The notes beneath the pieces are model-generated. The model did no database searches. It was given only the letters and a program-made list of their open reading frames with translations, and had not been told where the DNA came from. From NCBI GenBank assembly GCA_024401435.1, contig JAKSLB010000001.1:178280-242279 (forward strand): a stretch of DNA of 64,000 nt, in the 5' to 3' direction. This DNA is from Paludibacteraceae bacterium (GTDB lineage: Bacteria; Bacteroidota; Bacteroidia; Bacteroidales; Paludibacteraceae). Below are positions 24,542 to 40,227 of the stretch, in pieces; within the stretch, counting starts at the first letter, position 1; the number at the start of each line of letters is the position of its first letter. Position numbers and translations under genes: made by a program.

Positions 24542-27500
24542 TTATTTCAAATCCAAATGAATTAATTCAATTGTACCCTTGAAGGTATTACCATTAATGA
24601 TAGCGCTATAGTAATAAACGCCTGGATCAGCATAACGACCCGAATGATCTTTACCATCCCATCCATTATTACCCTCACTTACCTTATTTCCATAACGGTC
24701 GAAGATAACAACGTAACGATTCTCCAAGAAGATATCATTCAAACCTTCTCTACGTGTAGGAGTAAATGCAGTCGGTACATGTTCCAAAACGTTAATTTTT
24801 AGAATATTTGAAGGGACAGCAGGGCAAACACCATCACCTGCTATCACATAATATCTAGCCGTATCTTGAGGAAGGAATGTAAAGTTAGTGTTTATATCCG
24901 TAACATCTATAAACAATGGCTCTAACAACTCATCTGATTCAGGATTTAATATGGAACCTTCCTTATCGAAGATTGTTGGAACAGTAGACAAATCAGAATG
25001 AGTCATATACCACACCAAAATAGATGGAGTGTAATTCGTAGATAATGAAAGTGTGACTTGATCGCCATACCAACATCTGTTAATACCTAAAGGAGAAGTA
25101 GCTAACTGCAAATTAGCAGAATCATATTTCTTATGAATATTCAATAAGAAACTATCACGTTTCACCAATTGATATTTTCTCCAAGCGAGCAACTCATCTT
25201 TATTTCCGTCCAAATAACTCAAACTATCTTCTGTGCTATACAAAGTCAAACCACAAGTCGTAAACTTACTATCTAATGTTGTCGTACGACCGCATTCATT
25301 CTCTGCAAAATATGCCACAACTTTACTAGTATCGCTATAAGGAATAGGAGCACCAGCTATATAATCAACGCCATCTATTATCCATCCCGTTTTTGTTATC
25401 GCAGAGCCCATAGGTTCCACACAAGGATTAGTTGTTCTACTAACCATAGCCAAATCCAAAGAATCATCTTCACAAATATGGATACCGTTAGACTCCATCA
25501 AGATACGTGGACGTTCCTTAATGGTAAGATAAGCAGAAGTTGTATCCATACATTGGGTCGTTGTATCCATAATAACAAAATAGTACAAATCTGATTGATC
25601 CATTCTTGAGAGATGAGTTCTCTCTTTAATAAATTCGCTCATTTTTTGTTCATTAGGAATATAGAAACGATTATAATAAGTAACCGCATTATCACTATAA
25701 ATCAAATTAGATTCAGATACACTACCACGATAGTAATCATATGCGAATGTACTACTAGAAGTAAAGATACCATCCTCATCTTCATATGCTACACTACCAC
25801 TAGCATATCTAACTTTTTGAGATTGTAAATTGATAAATGATGTATCAGATCCACAAATCTCCTGATCATATCCTATAGAATGAACAATCGATTTAGGATT
25901 TTGTACAATCACCAATACCTTAGCACTATCGACGTTACCGCATTTATCTTTTGCATAAATCCACACATTAAGACTTGATTCGACAATGGTTCCAGCCGCA
26001 GGGACTTGCCATACTGTTATATCAGCAATTTCAGTACATAAATCATGGATGTAATTTTTTGCTTTGTCTTCCAATGCAGGAACAGCTTGTCTACACTTCT
26101 TAAGATTGACAGCCAAAACAGTATCTCTCCAACCATTAGAGAAGTTAAACTTAGGAGCCACTGAGTCAACCACTTGAATTACCTGAACCAAAGGAGAACT
26201 AATATGTCCACAAGAATCTTCAACTGTCCATGTACGCCAAATTGTATAGGTATTATAGTTACAACTATGAATGTCTTCAGAACGACTTGTTTCAATCTTC
26301 TTATGAACAACCAAAGCAGAATCTGGTGTACAATTATCAGATGCATCAATCACCACATCTTCCATCTCCATCACTATTTGGATTAAAGAGTCTTGGTCAC
26401 AAGAGTAAACCAAAGTATCAAGTTCTGTATGAATCACAGGAGCTGTAACATCTTGAATCGTATATACCTGATCACAAGTGATTCTATTATTACGGACATC
26501 ATCAATAATATATGTACGAGTTAACTTATAATTACAAGGGAGTGTACCCTCACTAGTTTCCTCATAACGATATGTTCCCTCTTTATACTTTTGCATTTCA
26601 GATAGTTTTCCACCAGCAGCAAGGAAGTCCTCAAATGTTGCATATGGCAATGGAATCTCGCCATAACATTCATAATCAACTTTTTCAGCGATTGGACATT
26701 CCAATACCGGAGGAACCATGTCTTCGATTCTAACAATCTGAGGACATACGACAGAATCTCCAAATACATATTTAAATGTCCACTTAACCGTAGTAAGTCC
26801 TATTTCATAATTTGCATATCTTTCTGTGGTATCCGAACGCCAGAATGTCAATGTAGCAGCATGACAATTATCGATTTTTATTTCAGGTTGTTCCAAACCT
26901 GCCAAACGAACCTCTTCAGCAGTAGCAAAGAAAGAATCTAACAAGTTGACAGTAACCGTATCTTTCAAAGTTCTACAATCAAATGTATCAGTCTTAACGA
27001 TTACAGATTTTTCACATGAATCTTTCATTAAACCTTTTTGGTCAATGAAAATCCATCGGATATCCGTTTTACCAAGAGGGAAGTCTTGCGAATTCCACAC
27101 AATTGGATTTCCTTTTTCATCTGTCACCAACTCTCCATTAAAACGACGCTGGATAATCGGTTGAATTGTATCATCATCACACATATCATAAGCGGTAGGG
27201 AATGTCATATAATGAGACAATGAATCAGCTTTTAATGAACATTCTCCGTGAGGTAAAACGACTATAACATTTGCGTCCACATCACAACTTTCCATCTTTA
27301 AAGCAACGGAATCAATCACATTAACAAACATAACGCAAGAATCTGAGTTGCCCGCTTTATCTGTAAATGTCCATACAATCTTGTGTCTTTCTGTTGGATA
27401 CACAGCAGTTTTTAATTCCTCATTATGATATACAATAATTGAACTATCTTTTTGTCTTACATAAGCTGTTATTTCTGGCAATAATAAGCCATCGCAAGGA

Positions 27501-30500
27501 TCATTCAAAGATAGAGTTGGAAGGTGCAAATCCTCATAAGGAATTTCACAAGCCATTGTAGCGTAGACATCTTTTTCAGGATCTTTACAAACCGTATCCA
27601 AATTAGGAGCAGAAGAATCGACTACAGAGAATTTGGTTACACAACTACTATCAATATCACCTTTACCATTATCAAAATACCAAATCAGTTTATGATATCC
27701 ACGAGGGAATGAATCAGCCAAGCAAGAAGGTAAGTTTTCAAAATTTGTTACCATCATCGCCATTTTTTCGATTGGATCCTCAGCACAAGTTGTATCGTAT
27801 TGTCCATTTCTATGTTGAACCTTTTTAATCCAAACAGAATCCAATTCACCATATGTGTTTACGCAAGAATATTCAATTGTCGAATCAGTTGAATTATAAT
27901 TCTCATCCAAGAACATTACTCTGCGAATCATCACTGGATAAACGATGGTATCATAATCTTTACTTAATGAAGAACTTGTACCTAAATTCTCATAATTATA
28001 AGGAGAACCAGAGCAATCATCGTAAGTATATTTTGTCTCGCAAAAATAAGCAGCAGAAGCTGTTGGAATACTATCCAAAGTATATCTTAAAGAAGCCAAA
28101 CAATTTTCTGGATCCACATATAATTTCGCATCACTTGGACACTTATTTGGTTTTGGTGCATATTTCGAATCAACAATTACATTTCTAGAACAAATTATCG
28201 TATCATATCTTTGTGTATCAAAGTTAAAATAGTCACTTGAGAACACATAAGTTATATTAGTTACACCGATTGGGAATCTATGCTTCAAATAATCGTCAGG
28301 CGATATAAGAGAATCAACTGCCACACCAATAACATCTCCGTTGTCATTCACACAAGAACCAGAGAAATAGATTTCCAATTTAACATTTCCGCAATACTCA
28401 GGATTAGTTTGAGGAACGGTTAAAAGATTTTCCAATGTATATTTAGTATCTGGGTTAACCGTGCTTTGAGCTTGAGCAGAGGCATATCCATATTCCATAT
28501 GATCATTCAAGTTCACACTTGTTCTGATATCATTTACAGTATCACAACGGAACATATCCTCTTTATTCAAAACAGAAACACGACTACGACAGTACATAGC
28601 GTTACCTGATGCATCAGCGAATTTCCACAAAATAAATGTAGTACCCACCTCATAATCATCCATCAAACCTTTCTCCATGGAATACTTCGACAAATCTACA
28701 TCTGGATCTTCACTTAAATCCTTTTGTGAACGTCCAGCATATTCAGCTTTAATCATTATCAAAGTATCCTTGAAAGTAGTATCAGGAAGTTCAGGTATCT
28801 TAATAGTAAGATTACTACCTGGGCGTGCCACGCAACCATCCTTTGCAGATACATTAATAGTATAATCCTCTACCAACTTACAATCAACCGCAGGAGTAGT
28901 CTCATCAAGGACTTCCAACGAATAATTACAAGCAGCCGATTTACCGCAACCATCCACAACAGAAAAATCCACCTGACCATGACCAGCAAAAAGAGTCAAA
29001 GCAGTTTTTGATTTGTCGGATAATTGTGCTTTATGAAGTACGTATGTTGAATCAAAACTATGAATAGACTCATCTCCTTCATAATGAATATGTACATTTA
29101 AAGCAGGATCATCATCGCAACTAGTTGTATAGTCTGGAATTGGCAAATAAATAGTTGTATCCAATTGGCCACTTCTTAATGTATAAGAAGAAGGTTCTGA
29201 TAATTTATCGCAATTAATAGTAGGAGCATCAGTTGAATGGATCCTAAATGTATCTTTAATATTTGCTATACAAATACGATCACCATTTACAACCTCCAAT
29301 TCAACTGGAAATAAAGCATCTACCATACCACACAATGCTTTTTTATCATATCCATTAATGTGGATAGTACCATTCTCATCCATTATAGCACCCGTAAAAT
29401 TCCATGTATATCCCATTACATCCTCTTTATTCATAAGGACAATGGTATCCGAAGAAGTAGCAACACACATAGTGTCTTCACCTCTCTTCGTAACAAAATT
29501 CAAACGAGAGACATTCGGTTGATCATAAATCCAAACAAGTAAAGTATCTCTACCATTAAAATCATTAACAAGTACACCTTCTTCATCATACATACGAGTA
29601 AACAAATATAATGCATATTGTTTATCGGGTGTATAATCGCTACTTACACGGGCACCTTCCTCTACAATAATATCAGCTGATTTTGTGTCAGGTGCTACCT
29701 CTAAGCGAACTTTGGTCTCATTTTCAGGTTCACCTTCAGGTGCTGCTAACGCCCAATCAAATGAATAAGAACCACCATTTTCCAAAATATACTCCAACAC
29801 TTTCTCGTCTTTTATTTTATAATGTGAACTTTGCGGATATGAAACAACACAAATATCACCACCATCAATTCCAGGTCCCATATCATCACAAATTTTTCCA
29901 CCTAACGTAAAATCAATATTCGTTTTCCCATCTGTCAAACGATAATAGAATGCCCCCTTATCAATCATTTTGATATACGCACGCTCTGGATGATTGAAGT
30001 CATCATACTCATAACCAATTTCCTCTGGTTGCCAAGGAACAACTCTAGTATAGGTTGCATCAGAATATTTCACCCATTTATAATCAGCACCACGAGAAAA
30101 ACCTGCTGCATTAACTACTACGTAATCATCTATACAAGCAATACGAGGAGCCATACAAACAGACTCAATTTCAGCACTAATATAGTCAATGGCCAAAGTA
30201 GCACAAGTAGGGAATTGTTCGAAATATGGATTGAAACAGAATTCTTTCAAACCATTAGGACTTGGGAATGTGCCATAATAAGTCATTTCGAAGCGAAATA
30301 CATTTGTAATGCTACTATTGTAATTATTTTTAATTATCCCTCCATAAATAAAATTAACTGGTTCAAAACCTAACGTCAAATTTTGTTTGACGATCAGTTG
30401 ATTGGTTGCATCATTATAAATCTCCAAATCCATATTATCTGAGGTAACCATTCCATGTTGAGTTCTCGCAATCATCTTACCAGAACCTTGTATACCATCA

Positions 30501-31285
30501 GTACAATTTGCTGGTATAATCATATAAAACCGCATCGTAAAACGATAGGTTCCGCCACTTTGGAATTGAGGATTACTAGTAGGGAACTTAATGTAAAAGA
30601 AGTCATCATTTACATTTTCTCTTACATAAAAATTATTATTTGGATTTACACCCAAAGAGTCATCAATATGCAAAGCAACTCCCAATTGCTCTTGAGTTTT
30701 CAACTCACCCGGATCACAAGTAAAGACAATTCCCTGTTCTGAAAAATACTCTTCTATACCTATTGGGAATCGATCACTTTCTTTTCCACCCCAATCAACA
30801 CTTGTAGCTCCCGGAGCATAATTAAAATCAGTACCACCATAATATACACCTGTTGTTGTCTGATGACAATCTTTAATTTTACAAGTAGTATTTTGAGTGA
30901 TTTTCTTTGTTAATTCCTTAGAGAACTTCAGTTCATCTCCTGCCATAGCTTTTACCAAAACCTTCACATATAAATCAGAAGAAGGCATTTGTAATGTATT
31001 TGACGAAACAATACGTGATCCTCTTGATCTCCAAGTGACACCATCTTCAGAGGTAGACCAATCATATACAACACGCAATGGCGTTGGTCGTAACCCTGTT
31101 ATATCAAATCCAATTGGATCTTTCGGACACGCATACTCTACCCCACCAGAAGATAATACAAGATCTTCCAATGGATTTGGTTCTTCTAACTGAGCATACG
31201 TTAGAGTGGAAAACAAGAAAACAATACAAGTCGATAAAACCTTGTAGATCTCAGGACTCCCTAAAAATTTTTTTATTGTATTCAT
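24542..31285 (-). CDS. Giant secreted HYR/Ig-like protein with T9SS type-B sorting domain
   Basis: A 2247-residue surface or secreted protein. A signal peptide (about 1-31, ending TLTYAQ) is followed by a roughly 400-residue N-terminal part, then a long series of HYR/Ig-like beta domains. These are recognisable by recurring phrases such as W(T/K)F.D..GN, cysteine pairs and VIDS/VVDSVAP linkers. The last about 85 residues are the gliding-motility-associated C-terminal domain (VPTAFTPTRREGLNDIF ... VVIFDRYGNKVSEGNNGWDGKD ... GVYYYSAIINGNTFKGTIELI), the type-B T9SS sorting signal. Such proteins are exported by the type IX system and act as adhesins or matrix proteins. Many regularly spaced cysteines suggest disulfide-stabilised domains. 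No PorP/SprF-like partner, often encoded next to type-B cargo, is adjacent. The ligand is unknown. Confidence 0.88.
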   Translation of the reverse strand: MNTIKKFLGSPEIYKVLSTCIVFLFSTLTYAQLEEPNPLEDLVLSSGGVEYACPKDPIGFDITGLRPTPLRVVYDWSTSEDGVTWRSRGSRIVSSNTLQMPSSDLYVKVLVKAMAGDELKFSKELTKKITQNTTCKIKDCHQTTTGVYYGGTDFNYAPGATSVDWGGKESDRFPIGIEEYFSEQGIVFTCDPGELKTQEQLGVALHIDDSLGVNPNNNFYVRENVNDDFFYIKFPTSNPQFQSGGTYRFTMRFYMIIPANCTDGIQGSGKMIARTQHGMVTSDNMDLEIYNDATNQLIVKQNLTLGFEPVNFIYGGIIKNNYNSSITNVFRFEMTYYGTFPSPNGLKEFCFNPYFEQFPTCATLAIDYISAEIESVCMAPRIACIDDYVVVNAAGFSRGADYKWVKYSDATYTRVVPWQPEEIGYEYDDFNHPERAYIKMIDKGAFYYRLTDGKTNIDFTLGGKICDDMGPGIDGGDICVVSYPQSSHYKIKDEKVLEYILENGGSYSFDWALAAPEGEPENETKVRLEVAPDTKSADIIVEEGARVSSDYTPDKQYALYLFTRMYDEEGVLVNDFNGRDTLLVWIYDQPNVSRLNFVTKRGEDTMCVATSSDTIVLMNKEDVMGYTWNFTGAIMDENGTIHINGYDKKALCGMVDALFPVELEVVNGDRICIANIKDTFRIHSTDAPTINCDKLSEPSSYTLRSGQLDTTIYLPIPDYTTSCDDDPALNVHIHYEGDESIHSFDSTYVLHKAQLSDKSKTALTLFAGHGQVDFSVVDGCGKSAACNYSLEVLDETTPAVDCKLVEDYTINVSAKDGCVARPGSNLTIKIPELPDTTFKDTLIMIKAEYAGRSQKDLSEDPDVDLSKYSMEKGLMDDYEVGTTFILWKFADASGNAMYCRSRVSVLNKEDMFRCDTVNDIRTSVNLNDHMEYGYASAQAQSTVNPDTKYTLENLLTVPQTNPEYCGNVKLEIYFSGSCVNDNGDVIGVAVDSLISPDDYLKHRFPIGVTNITYVFSSDYFNFDTQRYDTIICSRNVIVDSKYAPKPNKCPSDAKLYVDPENCLASLRYTLDSIPTASAAYFCETKYTYDDCSGSPYNYENLGTSSSLSKDYDTIVYPVMIRRVMFLDENYNSTDSTIEYSCVNTYGELDSVWIKKVQHRNGQYDTTCAEDPIEKMAMMVTNFENLPSCLADSFPRGYHKLIWYFDNGKGDIDSSCVTKFSVVDSSAPNLDTVCKDPEKDVYATMACEIPYEDLHLPTLSLNDPCDGLLLPEITAYVRQKDSSIIVYHNEELKTAVYPTERHKIVWTFTDKAGNSDSCVMFVNVIDSVALKMESCDVDANVIVVLPHGECSLKADSLSHYMTFPTAYDMCDDDTIQPIIQRRFNGELVTDEKGNPIVWNSQDFPLGKTDIRWIFIDQKGLMKDSCEKSVIVKTDTFDCRTLKDTVTVNLLDSFFATAEEVRLAGLEQPEIKIDNCHAATLTFWRSDTTERYANYEIGLTTVKWTFKYVFGDSVVCPQIVRIEDMVPPVLECPIAEKVDYECYGEIPLPYATFEDFLAAGGKLSEMQKYKEGTYRYEETSEGTLPCNYKLTRTYIIDDVRNNRITCDQVYTIQDVTAPVIHTELDTLVYSCDQDSLIQIVMEMEDVVIDASDNCTPDSALVVHKKIETSRSEDIHSCNYNTYTIWRTWTVEDSCGHISSPLVQVIQVVDSVAPKFNFSNGWRDTVLAVNLKKCRQAVPALEDKAKNYIHDLCTEIADITVWQVPAAGTIVESSLNVWIYAKDKCGNVDSAKVLVIVQNPKSIVHSIGYDQEICGSDTSFINLQSQKVRYASGSVAYEDEDGIFTSSSTFAYDYYRGSVSESNLIYSDNAVTYYNRFYIPNEQKMSEFIKERTHLSRMDQSDLYYFVIMDTTTQCMDTTSAYLTIKERPRILMESNGIHICEDDSLDLAMVSRTTNPCVEPMGSAITKTGWIIDGVDYIAGAPIPYSDTSKVVAYFAENECGRTTTLDSKFTTCGLTLYSTEDSLSYLDGNKDELLAWRKYQLVKRDSFLLNIHKKYDSANLQLATSPLGINRCWYGDQVTLSLSTNYTPSILVWYMTHSDLSTVPTIFDKEGSILNPESDELLEPLFIDVTDINTNFTFLPQDTARYYVIAGDGVCPAVPSNILKINVLEHVPTAFTPTRREGLNDIFLENRYVVIFDRYGNKVSEGNNGWDGKDHSGRYADPGVYYYSAIINGNTFKGTIELIHLDLK

Positions 31286-31680: not shown

Positions 31681-31716
31681 AAAAAAATGCGCAATTGAAA
31701 AATCTCAATTGCGCAT
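31681..31716 (-). terminator. Terminator of the DUF4384 gene
   Basis: ATGCGCAATTGA (31687-31698) pairs perfectly with TCAATTGCGCAT (31705-31716). On the minus strand a T run follows. Confidence 0.85.
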
Positions 31717-31735
31717 TTAATATATTACAATTCAA

Positions 31736-32611
31736 TTACTTAACAGTAATATTTTGACTATAAACACCTACTGGATAATTAGAAGATGTTGTTGTTGAAG
31801 GATCTACCTTTTCCAAATATTTTTTTACTTGACGTAAATCATAAGGAACTTCAGTAGCAATCAACATCAAATTATCGACACCCTTAGGCTCTGCAAATTC
31901 AATTGGATATGATACCAAATCAATTGTACAGTTTGCAGGAATCAACAAGTGAGACATCGTTGTAGCGTCATCAATAGGCAAGCAAACATACTTTTCATTC
32001 ATTTGGTTGATGTCAAGTATATTAACATACAAAGGAACATCACTCATGTTTTTGATTCTAAAAATAGCTTGTTTGTCTACGACAACTTCATTACCTAATG
32101 CTTGTTTGCTATCACGATCCAAAATCTCAAACGATATCTGATAATCTGTTGTAGCATTGTTAAAGTTATTCATAGAAACGCCCTTTGCTTTGGCAATAAG
32201 TGCTTTAGCAATGTCATTTTCTATTATATCTCCACGATATGTACATCCAGCTGCATCATTACTAATTTTATCAGTACCTCCATTAAACAAAGATTTTGAT
32301 GCATGAGAAACAAAATTTGCAGCGTATGATTGTTTTCCTTTATAATTAGCGATTAATTCACTAACCTTTTTACCATTCGTCTGAGAGATAGAATAAATCT
32401 TTTCAGCTTTTCTATCTATAATGGAAAGAGCAGAATTATCAGCTACACGAACAACATCATCATTTTTTAATTGGTTACGTTTTTGAAGTGCAACCCATTG
32501 ACCATTTTCTTGTCGTTCAGCTTGTCCAATCACGCTGTAAACATAAATATCTTGTGCAGAAAGTACTCCAACCAGCATACTTAAAACTGCCATTATAAAA
32601 AATCTTTTCAT
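31736..32611 (-). CDS. Exported DUF4384-like protein
   Basis: A 291-residue protein with a signal peptide (about 1-19). The N-terminal part (20-75) looks like a small beta barrel of the FecR/SH3 sort (ENGQWVALQKRNQLKNDDVVRV). The C-terminal half (about 150-265) resembles DUF4384 (VPLYVNILDINQMNEKYVCLPI ... LIPANCTIDL ... EPKGVDNLMLIATEVP), a domain often encoded with or fused to caspase-like proteases and kinases. It lies 145 nt downstream of the caspase gene on the same strand but has a very good promoter of its own (32689-32720) and a strong terminator. It is probably a periplasmic partner or substrate in the caspase module; that role is inferred from position. Confidence 0.7.
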   Translation of the reverse strand: MKRFFIMAVLSMLVGVLSAQDIYVYSVIGQAERQENGQWVALQKRNQLKNDDVVRVADNSALSIIDRKAEKIYSISQTNGKKVSELIANYKGKQSYAANFVSHASKSLFNGGTDKISNDAAGCTYRGDIIENDIAKALIAKAKGVSMNNFNNATTDYQISFEILDRDSKQALGNEVVVDKQAIFRIKNMSDVPLYVNILDINQMNEKYVCLPIDDATTMSHLLIPANCTIDLVSYPIEFAEPKGVDNLMLIATEVPYDLRQVKKYLEKVDPSTTTSSNYPVGVYSQNITVK

Positions 32612-32688
32612 ACGCTTACAATATTTATGGAACCATTTGTCCCGATTATTAATAATTAATTGATGGTATTCTTTTCAATCTTTCAATT

Positions 32689-32720
32689 CAAAGATACTCA
32701 CCTAATATATATACTACAAA
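32689..32720 (-). promoter_or_regulatory. Promoter of the DUF4384 gene
   Basis: On the minus strand TTTG (32717-32720), a 20-nt spacer and TATCTTTG (32689-32696) form a consensus Bacteroidetes promoter. The leader is about 70 nt. Confidence 0.7.
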
Positions 32721-32756
32721 AATTTTGCCAAGTTTTTCACTCATATTATTCGAGAA

Positions 32757-34772
32757 TTATTTTTTCTCGAACAATATAAAGTTTCCTTGTCTATTTTCAA
32801 AGATTGGCATTTGACGTCCATTGGTAGCAGAACGTACTTCATTACGAATGTAAAGTTCCAAAGCATCCAATGTAATATTTCCATTCTCGTCTACAGCAGC
32901 TCCCTTAATACCCTCCAACAAAGCTTTGGTGAATATACCATTTTCCCATTGCTCTGATTCATTGGATTTTTGTGCTTCTGTACTTGAATAGAATCCGATT
33001 ACATCAGGATCTGCCAACGAGAATGTCTCCGTCGTTCCTTTCACACCATACATTGAACCTGAGTGACAAGCATCCATAAAGATAATAATACGACATTTAC
33101 GATCTTTCAAACGCTTCAATGCACTCTTGATAATATCAAAGTCAACGGCAGTCGCAAACAAGTCGTTACTTTCTGCATTACAAGACAAGAAATAAGTCTC
33201 TGCACCTTCTTTTGCACCGTGACCAGAGAAGAACAACAACACAACATCTCCCTGTTCCACAGTGTTAACAAGAGTAGAAAGACCCTTCTTAATATTCTTA
33301 TCTGTACCAGACTTATCCTTGATAAGATTAGCAGTCTTTATTTGTTTATATTGAGACAAATTACATCCTTGAACTGTATTCATGAAATCTTCTGCATCCT
33401 TAGCTGCATGTTGCAATTTCAAATCAGCTTGGTCATAATCACTAATACCTACAGCAAAAACATGCAATGCTGGCTTTGGTCTGTCTCCACGATAATGAAG
33501 CAAAACGACAGCCGGATCACTATTTTGACCTTTATTATCCTTTGCAATCAATTGCACACGACAATCAGCTACACGAGGGAGAGTAAGTGTAAGTTGTTTT
33601 CCAACACGCTTTACGCCTTTTGTGTTTGGATATTTTTCTCCATTGATATAAGCAATCACCTCTGGATTACTTCCATCGTATGTAGTGGTCTCATAAATAA
33701 ACGTCACCTCAGGATTTGAATATTGAGAACCATCTTTTGGACTAATAATACTAATGGTTGGAGCACCTGGAACCTTAGTTGCTGAAGGTATAGGATCTTG
33801 CTTCGTTGGCGTTGTATTCTTAGTTGGTGTAGTAGGAGTACTTGGCACCTTTTGTGGCTCTTGCGCAGCCAAATTAGGTGTTTTATAAGTAAACGTTTCT
33901 ACATTTGGAACTGCAGAAGCAGCAACTTTTGCATTAGGAGTTCTCTTTTGCCATGCAGCAGCGGCAGCTCTCGCTTGTGCCATATCTGCTTGTGGTTTTA
34001 CATCTTTTATAAAGTTACCTGCTCTATCAATAGCAAACCACTTTCCTTTGTATTTCACAACAGCATAATAAGTTGTTGCATTAAAAATAGCACCTTTATC
34101 TACATTATCAAAAACTGGTTTCATAACCCAATTACCTAAATAATTGATAAAACCAAGTTTCTTCACATTACCCTTCATACCAATATAGATGTTTTCACCC
34201 ACAACAGCATTTTTTGACCATTCTGCAATGGCTTTTTTCGCATCTTCTTTAGAAATGAAATAGGGATTAATAAACATCACGCCTTCACGATTCACAAATC
34301 CCCATTGACCATCCAATTTTACCAATGAGTAATTCTGACCTTTTGAGAAATTAAGTTCTGGATCTACATCTTCATAAATAGGTCTGAAATACATTTCACC
34401 TGTATAATCAACAAATCCCCAACGAGTATAGGTTTGATCATATACTGGATACAAGAACTGACCTTTGGCACCACGTGCCACAGCCAACTTAGCTGCTCGC
34501 AATGCTAATTCTTTTGTTTCAAACACTGGTTTTGTGTAGTACTTTCCATCTGCGGCAACAGCACCCCACTTACCTTGATATTGCACAATTGCATACTTAC
34601 GACCAGCAAATGCATTGGCTTGATCATAATTATCAAACTTCGGTTCTACCACCCATGTAGAGCCATTCATAAATCCCCACTTACCTGTCTTTGTACTTTT
34701 ATTAGCTTTTTGAGCTGATAAAGGTGCGAATAAGAAAGACAAGAGACATAGTACTAAAAAATATCTTTTCAT
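32757..34772 (-). CDS. Secreted WG-repeat caspase-like protease
   Basis: A 671-residue exported protein. After a signal peptide (1-20) come about six WG-type repeats (KWGFMNGSTWVVEPKFDN, RWGFVDYTGEMYFRPIYEDV, KLGFINYLGNWVMKPVFDNV and others; residues 28-260). A Pro/Thr-rich linker (about 285-335), an Ig-like segment (about 340-430) and a C-terminal peptidase C14 domain (about 435-668) follow. The catalytic dyad is intact: His518 in FFSGHGAKEG and Cys569 in IFMDACHSGSM. Bacterial caspase homologues cut after basic residues, usually upon activation. Export to the periplasm or cell surface is unusual, as most relatives are cytoplasmic. It starts 8 nt after the stop of the CHASE2 gene, so the two are one operon. 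The substrate is unknown. Confidence 0.88.
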   Translation of the reverse strand: MKRYFLVLCLLSFLFAPLSAQKANKSTKTGKWGFMNGSTWVVEPKFDNYDQANAFAGRKYAIVQYQGKWGAVAADGKYYTKPVFETKELALRAAKLAVARGAKGQFLYPVYDQTYTRWGFVDYTGEMYFRPIYEDVDPELNFSKGQNYSLVKLDGQWGFVNREGVMFINPYFISKEDAKKAIAEWSKNAVVGENIYIGMKGNVKKLGFINYLGNWVMKPVFDNVDKGAIFNATTYYAVVKYKGKWFAIDRAGNFIKDVKPQADMAQARAAAAAWQKRTPNAKVAASAVPNVETFTYKTPNLAAQEPQKVPSTPTTPTKNTTPTKQDPIPSATKVPGAPTISIISPKDGSQYSNPEVTFIYETTTYDGSNPEVIAYINGEKYPNTKGVKRVGKQLTLTLPRVADCRVQLIAKDNKGQNSDPAVVLLHYRGDRPKPALHVFAVGISDYDQADLKLQHAAKDAEDFMNTVQGCNLSQYKQIKTANLIKDKSGTDKNIKKGLSTLVNTVEQGDVVLLFFSGHGAKEGAETYFLSCNAESNDLFATAVDFDIIKSALKRLKDRKCRIIIFMDACHSGSMYGVKGTTETFSLADPDVIGFYSSTEAQKSNESEQWENGIFTKALLEGIKGAAVDENGNITLDALELYIRNEVRSATNGRQMPIFENRQGNFILFEKK

Positions 34773-34780
34773 ATTGCAAA

Positions 34781-36031
34781 TTATTTTTTTTCGTTATCAA
34801 TAGTAGTTTCCGCTGCAGATACATTCGCATTTTCATTAGATACTGCGGCACCTTCTGAAGCCGAAACCGTTGGTTCATCTTTCACTATCACATCTGGCGT
34901 TTTTTGTCCTAACATTTTCTTAATACGCAACCAAATGAAATAGAATATTTCAGCTGCATATCCTGCAAGACCTGTTCCTAAAAGAGCATACAACAATCGA
35001 ACATTATATTGTTTCTCTATAAATAGGTATCCAGCCACAAACACCAATGACAACATTATTATCAACTGAAGAGAAGTAGACAAGAAACCTGAATAGTCAT
35101 TATATACCTCATTCAACCAGCAATAGATAATACAGAAAATTAAAGTAACAATAAATCCCAACAATAATGCTTGGTTTTCTGTCATATTATCAATCAACCG
35201 ACCATCTTTGGTTAAAGTTGAAATTGAATAACCATGAATCGTGGTTCCACAAATTCTGCGAGTTCCATTGATCTTTACTGGAATATCATGAAAATCTCTT
35301 AAATCTTGGAAGTCTCCTACAAGGAAAATCTTATCCTTCACATCCTCTGGATATAATTCGTCATAGATATGATACTTTTCAAAAAGGGTTTGCTTGTAAT
35401 TAATCAGCTCCTCTCCATCTCCTCGCTCTTCCCATTTCTTTTGGATATCGGGATATGCAATCTTCATAATCTCATTGACGTAAGTACTCAACGTAGTGTC
35501 ACCAAACTTGACGGTCTTACTGAAATTACGGACGGTCTCATTCGAAATATTGACACAGCCCTCTGGACAACCAGATTCTTTAACAAAATAAGATTCCTCC
35601 TTAATGAAAGTGTCATAATTTGGCACCATACGGCATGCGGCAATTACACGATCCTTGCATCGATTCATCACTCTCTGTAAACTATCATTAGCCAATGTGT
35701 CCTGTGAATTAGGTCCGAAAATAACATCTAACGCTATCACCTTCGCCCCCAAATCATACAAGCGTTGAATACCAAAAGCAATCTCTGAACGTGAATAACA
35801 ACCCGATAGATCATACATCACCACATCAAAATTCACATCCATCTGCTCATCCGAATTATCGTTCATAATTTGGAAATAGGTATCCGTCATATTAAAGTTA
35901 TTCAGAACCTGTGTCATCGGATCCATATAAGTTGAACTATAACCAATTTTAGCCACAAGAGCACAAATGGAAACGATAACAACCATTACCATCAATCCAT
36001 GAGGAATATATTTTGTAAACAAGTTCTTCAT
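34781..36031 (-). CDS. CHASE2-domain membrane protein without output domain
   Basis: A 416-residue protein (ATG at 36031; an in-frame TTG is two codons upstream). One N-terminal membrane segment (about 12-32) is followed by an exported CHASE2 sensor domain of about 250 residues. Its typical motifs include VVMYDLSGCYSRSEIAFGIQRL, AKVIALDVIFGPNSQDT, DKIFLVGDFQDLRDFHDIP and GTTIHGYSISTL. Three more membrane segments (about 290-375) and a short, acidic, disordered cytoplasmic tail (about 385-416) complete it. CHASE2 normally senses an extracytoplasmic signal for an attached kinase or cyclase. None is attached here and none is adjacent. Output to the secreted caspase encoded 8 nt downstream is a plausible inference. 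Confidence 0.85.
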   Translation of the reverse strand: MKNLFTKYIPHGLMVMVVIVSICALVAKIGYSSTYMDPMTQVLNNFNMTDTYFQIMNDNSDEQMDVNFDVVMYDLSGCYSRSEIAFGIQRLYDLGAKVIALDVIFGPNSQDTLANDSLQRVMNRCKDRVIAACRMVPNYDTFIKEESYFVKESGCPEGCVNISNETVRNFSKTVKFGDTTLSTYVNEIMKIAYPDIQKKWEERGDGEELINYKQTLFEKYHIYDELYPEDVKDKIFLVGDFQDLRDFHDIPVKINGTRRICGTTIHGYSISTLTKDGRLIDNMTENQALLLGFIVTLIFCIIYCWLNEVYNDYSGFLSTSLQLIIMLSLVFVAGYLFIEKQYNVRLLYALLGTGLAGYAAEIFYFIWLRIKKMLGQKTPDVIVKDEPTVSASEGAAVSNENANVSAAETTIDNEKK

Positions 36032-36164
36032 ATTCAATTACCCAGAATTCGATTAAACTTACAATCATTAAAAACAATAAAAGTCCAAAATCACAATGAT
36101 TTTACCATAATCTTATCGTTTTGTTGGAAACTTTATACATGAGTCCCCTTTATATTATAACAGA

Positions 36165-36195
36165 CAAAAATATAAAAGATTGTTAGATAAACAAA
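36165..36195 (-). promoter_or_regulatory. Promoter of the CHASE2-caspase operon
   Basis: On the minus strand TTTG (36192-36195), a 19-nt spacer and TATTTTTG (36165-36172) give a consensus promoter. The leader would be about 125 nt. Confidence 0.65.
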
Positions 36196-37360: not shown

Positions 37361-38371
37361 TTATTTTACATTACCTACTTTAATAAGGTATTCTGCAATT
37401 TGAACAGCATTCAAAGCAGCACCCTTTTTAATTTGGTCACCTACCAACCAAAGAGTCAATCCATTTTCGCAGGATAAATCCTTACGGATACGACCCACAT
37501 ACACATCATCCTTACCAGCTAAGAATAGAGGCATTGGATATTTCTTGTTAGCAGGATCATCCAACAACTGAAGACCTTCACCTGTTTCGATAGCCTGACG
37601 AGCTTCTTCTATGCTGATTGGCTTTTCTGTTTCAATCCACAATGCTTCTGAGTGAGAACGAAGAGATGGAACACGAACACACATAGCAGAGCAATTTACA
37701 TCGCTGTGCATGATTTTCTTTGTTTCATTGAACATCTTCATCTCCTCTTTTGTATATCCATTGTCAGTAAAGACATCAATTTGAGGGATAACATTATATG
37801 CTAATTGATAAGCGAACTTATTAACTGTTACAGGTTTGTTGTCCAACACCTCACGATATTGTTGTTCCAATTCAGCCATAGCAGCAGCACCAGCACCACT
37901 GGCAGCTTGATAACTAGCAACGTGAATACGTTTGATATGGCTCAATTTCTCAAGTGGTTGAAGTACAACCACCATCATAATAGTTGTACAGTTAGGGTTT
38001 GCGATGATTCCCTTAGGGCGATTCAAAGCATCAGCTGCATTACACTCAGGAACTACCAATGGAACTTCAGGGTCCATACGGAAAGCACTTGAGTTATCAA
38101 TCATCACAGCACCATACTTTGTAATGTCAGCAGCAAATTCTTTCGAAATACTTGCACCAGCAGAAGTAAAAGCGATATCGATATCTTTAAAATCATCGTT
38201 GTGCTTCAATTCCTTAACGGTGTATTTCTTTCCTTTGAACTCATAAACAGATCCTGCACTTCTGGATGATCCAAAAAGAACCAAATCATCCAATGGGAAA
38301 TTTCTTTCTGCTAAAACACGAAGGAACTCTTGTCCGACTGCTCCACTCGTTCCAACAATTGCTACTCTCAT
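37361..38371 (-). CDS. asd: Aspartate-semialdehyde dehydrogenase
   Basis: Reduces aspartyl phosphate to aspartate semialdehyde with NADPH, the branch point to lysine/diaminopimelate, threonine and methionine. The 336-residue length is normal for the Gram-positive/Bacteroidetes type. It has the NADP site [15 protein letters not shown], the catalytic Cys128 in NPNCTT and His240 in [10 protein letters not shown], plus [10 protein letters not shown] in the dimer region. The promoter at 38447-38455 is divergent from the 38482 gene and the terminator follows closely, so it is mainly monocistronic. Confidence 0.95.
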
Positions 38372-38481: not shown

Positions 38482-40227
38482 ATGAGACAAAGAATTTTAT
38501 CTGTTTTTGTGGGAATCTTTTTCACACTACTAACGAATGCCCAAATTTCTGAGCATTTTTCATCTAAAAATCTATCATCTTCTTGGGATGGAGAAGTATC
38601 TAAATTCAGTTTGCAAGACGAACAATTGCTGTTATCCGACACCACACAATCGGGATCTGCCTACCTTTCCACCTACTCTACCGCTATCGACAATGGTTCG
38701 TGGGAACTGCATCTTCAAATGAAGTTTAAACCTTCTGGTTCAAACTATGTTCGTTATTATCTTACAAGTAACAGTCCCATTCTCAACGAAGCCCTCGACG
38801 GCTATTACGTCCAAATAGGCAACTCCAACAAACAAATCCTGCTCTATCGAATGAAAGGAACCTCTTCTAAAAAAATTGGAGAGAGTAGTGAAAATAGAAT
38901 CGATACCTCCTCGGTCGATTTATACCTTAAAGTGATTAGAAGCAAAACGGCTGAATGGAAAGTATACTCAAAACTGAATGACGAGAAGCAATTCTCTGAA
39001 GAGTTCTCCGTCACAGACTCGACCTATTTAACCTCATCTTTTACTGGTATTTATTGCAAATACACAAAATCTAATGCAAATAAAATGTCGTTCGATGATA
39101 TCATAGTTGAGGGAGAGGGAGAAGAAGACAAAGAAAGTCCTTTTATCTCTTCCTTTTCTCCAACAGACACACTACTAACCATTCATTTCAACGAATGGGT
39201 CAATGAAGATTTTATTCAATTAGGAATAGAGCCTCAACTTGACTATACTGCAGAATGGAATAACGCGCATAACCAACTCTCCATTCATCTAAATGAAGTT
39301 TTTGAAAGAGGTAAAAAATACGATCTAACTCTTTCTGACATCCGAGATTTCAGAAGCAATGTAAGTGATACCATCCTTTATTTTGCTCATGTAGATGAAA
39401 TAGAACCCCAAGATATTCTATTTACAGAGGTACTATTCGTACCTAACAAAGGTGGTAGCGAATTCGTTGAAATCTATAACAATAGTAACAAGGTCTTAGA
39501 TCTTTCACTGCTGAAATTTTCCACACGCAAAGCAGCCGACTCCTCTCTTTATTCTGCCAAGAAAATCGCCACAGAATCATGTTTGATTTTCCCTCAAGAG
39601 ATAAAAGTATTGACCAACAGTCGAACTGGATTAACCGATTTTTATCATTGTGAAGAGAATGCTATCATCGAAATGTCATCGTTTCCTTCTTTGCGAAATG
39701 AAACAGGTTCCATTGTTTTATTTCGTAGCAAAGACTCTCTAATCATAGATGATTTTTACTATGAAGACACTATGCATGAAGAGTCTGTCCCAAACAAAGG
39801 CACTGGCGTTTCTTTAGAAAGGAAATCATTAACAACTCACGAATGGACTTCATCAGCAGGCATCAATGGATATGCCACTCCAGGTTATTTTGCAAGCAAT
39901 ATAGAGAATGCCGTAGATGATATACATTTTGATGCGACAGAAGTATGTTTTCCTTTATATGATGAAGAGCATCATTTTCAATTGAAATACCGTTTTGACG
40001 AACCAAACTATTTGGCTACAATCAAAATATATAATTTAAATGGGGAATGTGTAAAAGACTTACTTCACAACACAACACTTTCTCAGGAAGGAATTATCCA
40101 ATGGGATGGAACAAATAACAACGAAAACATCCTTCAAACTGCACCTTATATTGTAAGAATGGAAGCCCTTCATGCAACCTCAGGGAAAAGAGTTACAAAA
40201 TCATTTGTCGTTTTAATATCAAGATGA
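38482..40227 (+). CDS. Secreted lamin-tail-domain protein
   Basis: A 581-residue exported protein (signal peptide about 1-20). Residues about 25-210 form a beta-rich domain that looks like a concanavalin-type jelly roll. About 215-300 is an Ig-like segment. About 308-430 is a lamin-tail domain (ILFTEVLFVPNKGGSEFVEIYN, VLDLSLLKFSTRK, GTGVSLERKS, WTSSAGINGYATPGYF), common in extracellular proteins and nucleases of this phylum. The C-terminal 80 residues resemble a FlgD-like Ig or T9SS-type sorting fold (ATIKIYNLNGECVKDL ... PYIVRMEA). No catalytic residues are recognised. It is convergent with the outer-membrane protein gene at 40346. Confidence 0.75.
   Translation: MRQRILSVFVGIFFTLLTNAQISEHFSSKNLSSSWDGEVSKFSLQDEQLLLSDTTQSGSAYLSTYSTAIDNGSWELHLQMKFKPSGSNYVRYYLTSNSPILNEALDGYYVQIGNSNKQILLYRMKGTSSKKIGESSENRIDTSSVDLYLKVIRSKTAEWKVYSKLNDEKQFSEEFSVTDSTYLTSSFTGIYCKYTKSNANKMSFDDIIVEGEGEEDKESPFISSFSPTDTLLTIHFNEWVNEDFIQLGIEPQLDYTAEWNNAHNQLSIHLNEVFERGKKYDLTLSDIRDFRSNVSDTILYFAHVDEIEPQDILFTEVLFVPNKGGSEFVEIYNNSNKVLDLSLLKFSTRKAADSSLYSAKKIATESCLIFPQEIKVLTNSRTGLTDFYHCEENAIIEMSSFPSLRNETGSIVLFRSKDSLIIDDFYYEDTMHEESVPNKGTGVSLERKSLTTHEWTSSAGINGYATPGYFASNIENAVDDIHFDATEVCFPLYDEEHHFQLKYRFDEPNYLATIKIYNLNGECVKDLLHNTTLSQEGIIQWDGTNNNENILQTAPYIVRMEALHATSGKRVTKSFVVLISR

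Follow-up and report, generated by a model that had tools for sequence, protein, structure and literature searches.

How could a membrane sensor without an output domain control a protease that appears to lie outside the cytoplasm? This question is raised by three genes on the minus strand of a Paludibacteraceae genome (contig JAKSLB010000001.1, positions 178,280 to 242,279; the whole 64,000-nucleotide stretch is referred to as the window), which encode, in this order, a CHASE2 membrane protein, a WG-repeat caspase and a third, apparently exported protein. The usual view of CHASE2 is that of a sensor feeding into kinases and cyclases within the cell, and most discussion of bacterial caspases concerns intracellular roles in cell death or defence. 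We see about an even chance that the three genes form one extracytoplasmic receptor-adaptor-protease unit that signals laterally rather than inward. The linkage of the genes and the shared membrane side of their products are well supported by prediction.

The CHASE2 protein, the caspase and their co-inheritance

The CHASE2 protein (34781..36031; this and all following features of the three genes lie on the minus strand) comprises 416 residues from the ATG at 36031, with an in-frame TTG at 36037. It scores 50.9 bits against the Pfam family CHASE2 (PF05226; cut-off 26.3), and its AlphaFold2 (AF2) model, with a predicted local distance difference test score (pLDDT) of 82.1, contains helices at residues 2-29, 285-309, 314-340 and 347-373, i.e. 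one helix before and three after the ectodomain, which is the topology of CHASE2 receptors. A hydropathy scan calls the first helix and two of the three later ones. The CHASE2 domain itself (residues about 30-284; 35180..35944) is predicted to be extracytoplasmic from the helix count and the charged N-terminus. It is followed, after the last helix, by a variable and presumably cytoplasmic tail (residues 374-416; 34784..34912) that is not conserved in the CHASE2 alignment, falls below a pLDDT of 50 at residues 378-416 and is predicted to be disordered over its last 39 residues. Neither a kinase nor a cyclase nor another output domain was found in a Pfam scan of the protein, as had been proposed in a sequence-only reading of this DNA; the usual, though not universal, hallmark of a transducer is lacking.

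The caspase gene (32757..34772; 671 residues) begins 8 bp after the CHASE2 gene and is separated by 145 bp from the third gene, and the coordinates confirm the same-strand layout of the sequence-only reading. Its product matches Peptidase_C14 (70.8 bits, cut-off 21.4; E 1.8e-19) and the WG repeat (29.8 bits, cut-off 25.6; E 6.2e-7). The caspase domain (residues 432-671; 32760..33479) carries the dyad noted earlier, His518 (33221..33219) and Cys569 (33068..33066), which, like Asp459 and Asp567, is invariant among 21 aligned sequences, and both dyad motifs are present in 31/31 caspases of the named loci. The protein is thus a C14 member with an intact His-Cys dyad, and protease activity is predicted. 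The model of EACC1-associated caspases (NF047832) gives 75.3 bits, below its cut-off of 140. For TbMC2, a role of two Asp residues has been described, and orthocaspases cleave after basic residues (PMC6426788). By-eye comparison suggests Asp459 and Asp567 as candidate counterparts of the TbMC2 pair and thereby as candidates for an acidic pocket. Export of the caspase, as of the third protein, was judged by hydropathy and N-terminal appearance only. A signal-peptide-like start, hydrophobic with basic residues and mostly ending in A-Q or similar, is kept in 21 caspases, which speaks indirectly against a protease that stays in the cytoplasm.

A random association of the three families is not seen in related genomes. 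The sample comprised 150 genomes, the own genome included, with an E threshold of 1e-5; caspases were counted if the match covered most of their length, so that 30 genomes with coverage of only the WG repeats or the caspase domain were dropped from that count. CHASE2 was found in 24 genomes, the caspase in 23 and the third gene in 23, with all three families in 22, two in 2, a single one in 0 and none in 126 (Fisher test of co-occurrence: 3e-26 by genome; 1e-10 by genus, one genus with two of the three counted as positive). In 16/22 genomes, the three genes share a contig. They are found on different contigs in the other six (G019, G020, G050, G051, G075 and G076, from three genera), among which the assembly of G051 is broken, with pieces of the unit at contig ends. 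There, a short WG-only frame (L041:14-664) follows CHASE2 near the end of one contig, and the family caspase starts another. None of the three families occurs in G005, which belongs to the same genus and is 97% complete, and the own genome encodes a single CHASE2, a single C14 and a single partner domain (see below).

The relatives found with the CHASE2 profile (32 loci) are metagenome-assembled genomes of Paludibacteraceae, Bacteroidales and two Candidatus genera, among which those about 90% identical in CHASE2 suggest Paludibacteraceae. Rumen, reticulum, caecum or horse faeces figure in many of the isolate names, and the host very probably inhabits a herbivore gut. The caspase gene directly follows CHASE2 in 31/32 named loci, L123 being the exception. 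The third gene follows in 21/32 and in L112, and is not in the fetched stretch of 10; the gap between caspase and third gene ranges from -4 to 228 bp in 20 relatives examined. Even the most distant loci, L137-L139, with 27 to 30% identity to the CHASE2 protein of the window, keep the order CHASE2, caspase, third gene, while G045 shows the order CHASE2, third gene, caspase. Five neighbours from the window were sought in 23 fetched loci, some of which are cut by contig ends: the gene at 24542..31285 lies beside the unit in 3 and that at 37361..38371 near it in 1, whereas the other three were found in 0/23. In the fetched loci of relatives, the unit has no conserved cytoplasmic neighbour gene. 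Taken together, the three-gene arrangement is not due to chance. Purifying selection acts on all three genes, with ratios of nonsynonymous to synonymous substitution rates (dN/dS) against L109 of 0.031, 0.035 and 0.032, which are rough values at 0.63 to 0.71 synonymous differences per site, near saturation; against L110, the ratios are 0.040 for the caspase and 0.043 for the third gene, with CHASE2 saturated. An additional gene of 336 to 374 codons overlaps or touches the CHASE2 start in one genus (L045:227-1351, L042:9495-10505), and one copy shows weak likeness to glycosyltransferase family 2.

The third protein and a family of exported CHASE2 partners

The third gene (31736..32611) encodes 291 residues, and signal-peptide-like N-termini of the kind described for the caspases are kept in 16 members of its family by hydropathy. 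In the AF2 model (pLDDT 76.6), strands at residues 22-82 are followed first by helices, then by a linker of low confidence and finally by a beta sandwich. The N-terminal domain (residues 20-110; 32282..32554; 16-row alignment) relates the protein to exported neighbours of CHASE2 proteins at the level of the class: a profile of the third protein without signal peptide matches these over residues about 20-128 with an hhalign probability of 96.1 and an E value of 3.3e-9, versus probabilities of 0.5 and 0.3 for the FecR and caspase controls. A FecR assignment, which was considered because the domain looked so by eye and FecR-CHASE2 operons have been published, was rejected, with hhalign values of 0.2 to 0.5 against 11 FecR proteins of the class and no match of Pfam FecR (PF04773) in the third protein of the window or in 10 class partners. 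The partner domain shows a weak resemblance to the LapA retention module (NF033682), which 7/16 members match at E <=10 (best 2.2e-5), with a highest full-length score of 22.7 bits against a cut-off of 50 and no match for the third protein of the window; a fold comparison of the domain ranked 5ix9 first.

Next comes a conserved linker (residues 119-128; 32228..32257). Its mean conservation of 0.86 is the highest of seven stretches compared, versus 0.65 for residues 20-90; residues 111-127 have a pLDDT below 50 in the model. Position 126 is basic in 16/16 alignment rows and in 20/20 further members. The C-terminal beta sandwich (residues 150-291; 31739..32164) scores 13.9 bits against DUF4384 (PF14326; cut-off 27, E 0.059), and since this is below the cut-off, "DUF4384-like" is a fair description while membership is not demonstrated. 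With the DUF4384 regions of five proteases that are linked to or near CHASE2-partner pairs, the C-terminal half aligns at an hhalign probability of 58 (E 1e-4), compared to 1.2 with the part of class partners that consists of immunoglobulin (Ig)-like and TPR domains. Given the partner-family match of its N-terminal and the DUF4384-region match of its C-terminal part, the third protein seems to join a partner domain with a protease-associated domain. Hence, the exported DUF4384-like protein of the sequence-only reading keeps its signal-like start and its "like", but is more aptly named a CHASE2 partner with a distant DUF4384-like domain attached. Its apparent role is that of an adaptor that connects the protease to the receptor. 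One relative has a further, distantly related member of the family (26% identity) outside the unit (L107, G013:C22:13520-14293).

At the level of the class, the CHASE2 profile matches 22/295 genomes and the partner-domain profile 28/295, with 21 in common. Since 11 of the 16 profile rows had been chosen because their genes adjoin CHASE2 genes of the class, a recount was limited to the CHASE2 genomes that gave no row: 10/11 of these carry the partner domain versus 7/273 genomes without CHASE2 match (p 3e-13), and in the eleventh, G439, a partner domain is adjacent at E 2e-7. Among the seven partner genomes without CHASE2 match, the four fetched as L238-L241 show a weak adjacent CHASE2, and the fetched locus of G184 (L237) shows none. 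The domain adjoins CHASE2 in 14/20 class loci, 10 of which gave profile rows; in the other six genomes it lies elsewhere, beside apparently unrelated genes. Class-level partners show TPR matches after a sandwich-like part.

In a sample of the phylum, the partner domain was found in 30/277 genomes, four of which are also in the class sample, and 20 stretches from 19 of these 30, found through the domain, were inspected. An output-less CHASE2 is adjacent in 11 (L292, L293, L295, L296, L298-L302, L307 and L308); one (L297) is a fusion of the two; in three, a CHASE2 enzyme (two cyclases and one sigma-54 activator) is encoded no further than about 5 kb away, with weak domain matches; and five show no CHASE2, one of which (L291) shares its genome with L307. 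L292 and L307, from one family, harbor two tandem output-less CHASE2 genes before one partner gene. A collection of plasmids yielded a single relative, from Bernardetia, in which the partner domain is encoded by the following gene (E 3e-21), whose product also matches the LapA module (E 0.025). An unnamed family of exported partners thus travels with output-less CHASE2 proteins in Bacteroidota.

The side of the membrane on which these partners work is suggested by a fusion of 750 residues (L297:6633-8882) that combines CHASE2 with the partner domain; Ig-like and TPR-like parts are also discernible by eye. Its CHASE2 domain and associated helices are followed by a basic stretch, one more hydrophobic helix (residues 409-427) and the partner domain. 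The extra helix would place the latter on the CHASE2 side of the membrane, so that both domains would share the same predicted side; the last CHASE2 helix of the fusion was missed by hydropathy.

Proteases also occur beside other CHASE2-partner pairs. Outside the clade of the WG-caspases, there are 32 linked output-less pairs (14 from the class, six from f104, 11 from the phylum and that of Bernardetia), some of them closely related, and a protease lies beside at least 6 of these 32; CHAT and papain-like domains were sought only in chosen neighbour genes. L173 comprises a caspase-DUF4384 protein, CHASE2, the partner and a caspase-TPR protein, whose genes are 6, 76 and -16 bp apart; its genome yields three C14 matches. 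TPR-CHAT proteins are encoded beside the pairs of L170 and L298. In L293 and L301, a papain-like protein with DUF4384 precedes a short gene and then a caspase; the short genes (L293:5942-6454, L301:3901-4401) have no Pfam match. Another papain-like protein with DUF4384 accompanies the pair of L308, the sole locus with DUF4384 above the cut-off, and in L171 caspases lie at most a few kb away, the complete one being encoded on the opposite strand. As judged by eye, cysteine proteases beside other pairs have signal-like starts. Near pairs, C14 occurs in 4/33 loci (fusion included; L171, L173, L293 and L301) versus 0.09 expected (p 3e-6), a rough expectation from the class-wide density (at least 280 C14 matches, at most 9 per genome) and an assumed genome size. 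A transglutaminase-like reading of a 497-residue protein encoded 1 base from CHASE2 (L169:7013-8503) was rejected, with no support from Pfam, NCBIfam or PDB. Its homologues, present in 23/81 genomes of that family, show by eye a D-C-[ED]-D-R motif and a later His in 15/15 aligned loci and D-P-T in 13/15; as 0/14 other loci revealed CHASE2 or the partner domain in a span of at most about 1.5 kb, the protein was not counted as evidence.

Promoters, terminator and surroundings

Sequences resembling a Bacteroidota-type promoter, matched to the consensus TTTG-N20-TAnnTTTG, were found 5' of the CHASE2 gene (36165..36195; weak) and 5' of the third gene (32689..32720). The pattern has 5 matches in the window versus 2.4 expected, a number also reached by 11/100 shuffles, and it is absent from the 220 bases 5' of the third gene in 20/20 relatives examined; the strong promoter that had been assigned to the third gene is not conserved. 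A scan for sigma-70-type promoters gave 22 sites versus 20.7 expected. An intrinsic-terminator-like hairpin with a 15-pair stem and a T run follows the third gene (31685..31718), and a terminator scan reported none between the three genes on their strand. Similar, by eye sigma-54-like TTGGCA...TTTGTA stretches occur on the minus strand 5' of the third gene (32731-32715) and after it (31623-31607). Among the neighbours, the 2247-residue protein encoded at 24542-31285 has an end that resembles by eye a sorting domain (CHU_C-type) of the type IX secretion system, and a 581-residue protein (38482-40227) has lamin-tail and FlgD-Ig matches, both sub-threshold.

Proposed lateral signalling, its precedents and its rivals

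Exported proteins encoded beside CHASE2 receptors are known from Proteobacteria, i.e. LysM-FecR with a CHASE2 histidine kinase and MtxA with a CHASE2 cyclase (PMC5192318, PMC4439547). Like the unit of the window, these pairs place the gene of an exported protein next to that of a CHASE2 membrane receptor, and MtxA, with Ig-like and TPR-like domains besides a signal peptide (PMC4439547), recalls the class-level partners with their TPR after a sandwich-like part. Yet, the CHASE2 proteins there include a cytoplasmic kinase or cyclase, whereas the unit of the window lacks an output domain and adds an exported protease. The match to MtxA (4z29) is weak (E 0.45 as the second of 2 rows; E 0.36 late among 53 rows, mostly TPR proteins), and MtxA was not found with the profile of the window's own family. 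Caspase and CHASE2 have also been reported as fusions, namely the T. erythraeum metacaspase and EACC2-caspase proteins with CHASE2 (PMC2853523, PMC3501461, PMC8195603), which share the pairing of the two domains with the window. The T. erythraeum protein, however, is a single chain with a caspase predicted to be cytoplasmic, while the proteins of the window are separate, with a caspase predicted on the CHASE2 side. DUF4384 has been described alongside caspase homologues (PMC6426788); in this survey, it is caspase-linked in L171 and L173 (sub-threshold) and linked to papain-like proteins elsewhere. In those systems the domain resides on the protease, in the window a sub-threshold version resides on the CHASE2 partner. 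A precedent for lateral control is LapD-LapG-LapA, in which a periplasmic cysteine protease that cuts a protein with a retention module is under the control of a receptor in the membrane (PMC6890996), and the weak retention-module resemblance of the partner domain adds to this likeness. The systems differ in that LapD reads cytoplasmic c-di-GMP, LapG belongs to another protease family and the set of the window includes no adhesin; in place of a LapG-type protease and a GGDEF/EAL receptor, the window encodes a C14 protease and an output-less CHASE2 protein. A description of an output-less CHASE2 protein with an exported caspase was not found in the open-access literature searched, which excludes most subscription papers and preprints. 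As far as searched, a known sensor domain and a known protease are combined here in an undescribed wiring.

In the proposed unit, the output-less CHASE2 protein would be a receptor that spans the membrane and exposes its sensing domain to the periplasm. The third protein could serve as exported partner and adaptor, whose N-terminal domain may engage CHASE2 and whose C-terminal DUF4384-like domain may engage the protease. The WG-caspase would then act as exported effector: receptor and adaptor together would retain it at the membrane surface or set it free, and it would cut envelope proteins after Arg or Lys. Direct binding, the domain contacts, the direction of control, the trigger and the substrates are what we infer. 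The adaptor reading joins most simply what was computed, i.e. the genes, the intact dyad, the co-inheritance also where the genes are unlinked, the lack of an output domain, the signal-like starts, the partner family and the CHASE2-partner fusion. The sequence-only reading, which placed sensing and proteolysis outside the cytoplasm with sideways signalling, was right in outline: the same-side fusion and the signal-like starts agree with the location, and lateral signalling would follow from it. Besides the naming of the third protein and the promoter, it is corrected with regard to the caspase. With C14 in 12/22 CHASE2 genomes of the class versus 99/273 others (p 0.11), i.e. not significantly commoner, the caspase is not the constant partner, and a role as obligatory class-wide partner of CHASE2 is unsupported.

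Alternatively, the third protein might be a substrate rather than an adaptor. An Arg/Lys-specific caspase could cut its linker at residue 126, split the CHASE2-binding from the C-terminal domain and thereby reset the receptor in a manner reminiscent of LapD-LapG-LapA, which we consider rather unlikely. Such a cut would suit a linker that is the best conserved of the stretches compared and yet is mostly modelled with low confidence, a basic residue present in 36/36 family members examined, and the invariant Asp459 and Asp567, in line with the basic-residue specificity of orthocaspases (PMC6426788), as well as the LapA-module matches and the rank of 5ix9. The basic residue is, however, also kept in genomes without C14, which makes docking on CHASE2 an equal reading of the linker. 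Signalling might also run inward after all, through an unlinked cytoplasmic partner, with the caspase as one of several envelope factors of the same regulon. Cytoplasmic output domains are indeed frequent on CHASE2 proteins, the CHASE2 cyclases and the CHASE2-sigma-54 activator of the phylum loci lie near partner-domain genes, and the T. erythraeum fusion is predicted to act inward (PMC3501461). Against this, the tail after the last CHASE2 helix is short, disordered and not conserved, no conserved cytoplasmic gene adjoins the three genes, and the constant partner across the class is an exported protein; this indirect evidence leaves the inward route quite improbable. Least probable is a role in anti-phage defence or cell death, in which proteolysis of the envelope would kill the cell. 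Caspases are known in described conflict systems, and the PADLOC caspase model matches the caspase of the window at 9.5e-17 (three unit proteins scanned), but this model may match any C14 protein, the scanned neighbours are largely unrelated housekeeping or envelope genes, and low dN/dS with long co-inheritance favours a steady role.

Several observations weigh against the extracytoplasmic receptor-adaptor-protease unit itself. Export rests on N-terminal appearance, the DUF4384 resemblance of the third protein is weak, and the by-genome Fisher values ignore relatedness. The third gene is missing from G018 and the caspase from G077, 26/32 linked pairs outside the WG-caspase clade show no protease in the same gene run (CHAT and papain-like domains sought in chosen neighbours), and the C14 counts in the class (see above) likewise indicate that the caspase is not obligatory. 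A broader and more tentative proposal, which we regard as possible if rather doubtful, is a phylum-wide and so far undescribed lateral class, in which output-less CHASE2 proteins, together with a dedicated partner domain that is itself exported and distantly akin to the LapA retention module, would control exported caspase, CHAT and papain-like enzymes, which are cysteine proteases from several unrelated families. In Paludibacteraceae, the caspase would both dock on the partner and cut it at the basic linker residue, in a circuit that is wholly extracytoplasmic.

The partner family deserves a name, and the L297 fusion, which hints at its working side, should be useful for structure work. Residue 126 of the linker provides a precise candidate cleavage site. 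If the unit operates as proposed, a signal from outside would be turned into proteolysis without crossing the membrane.

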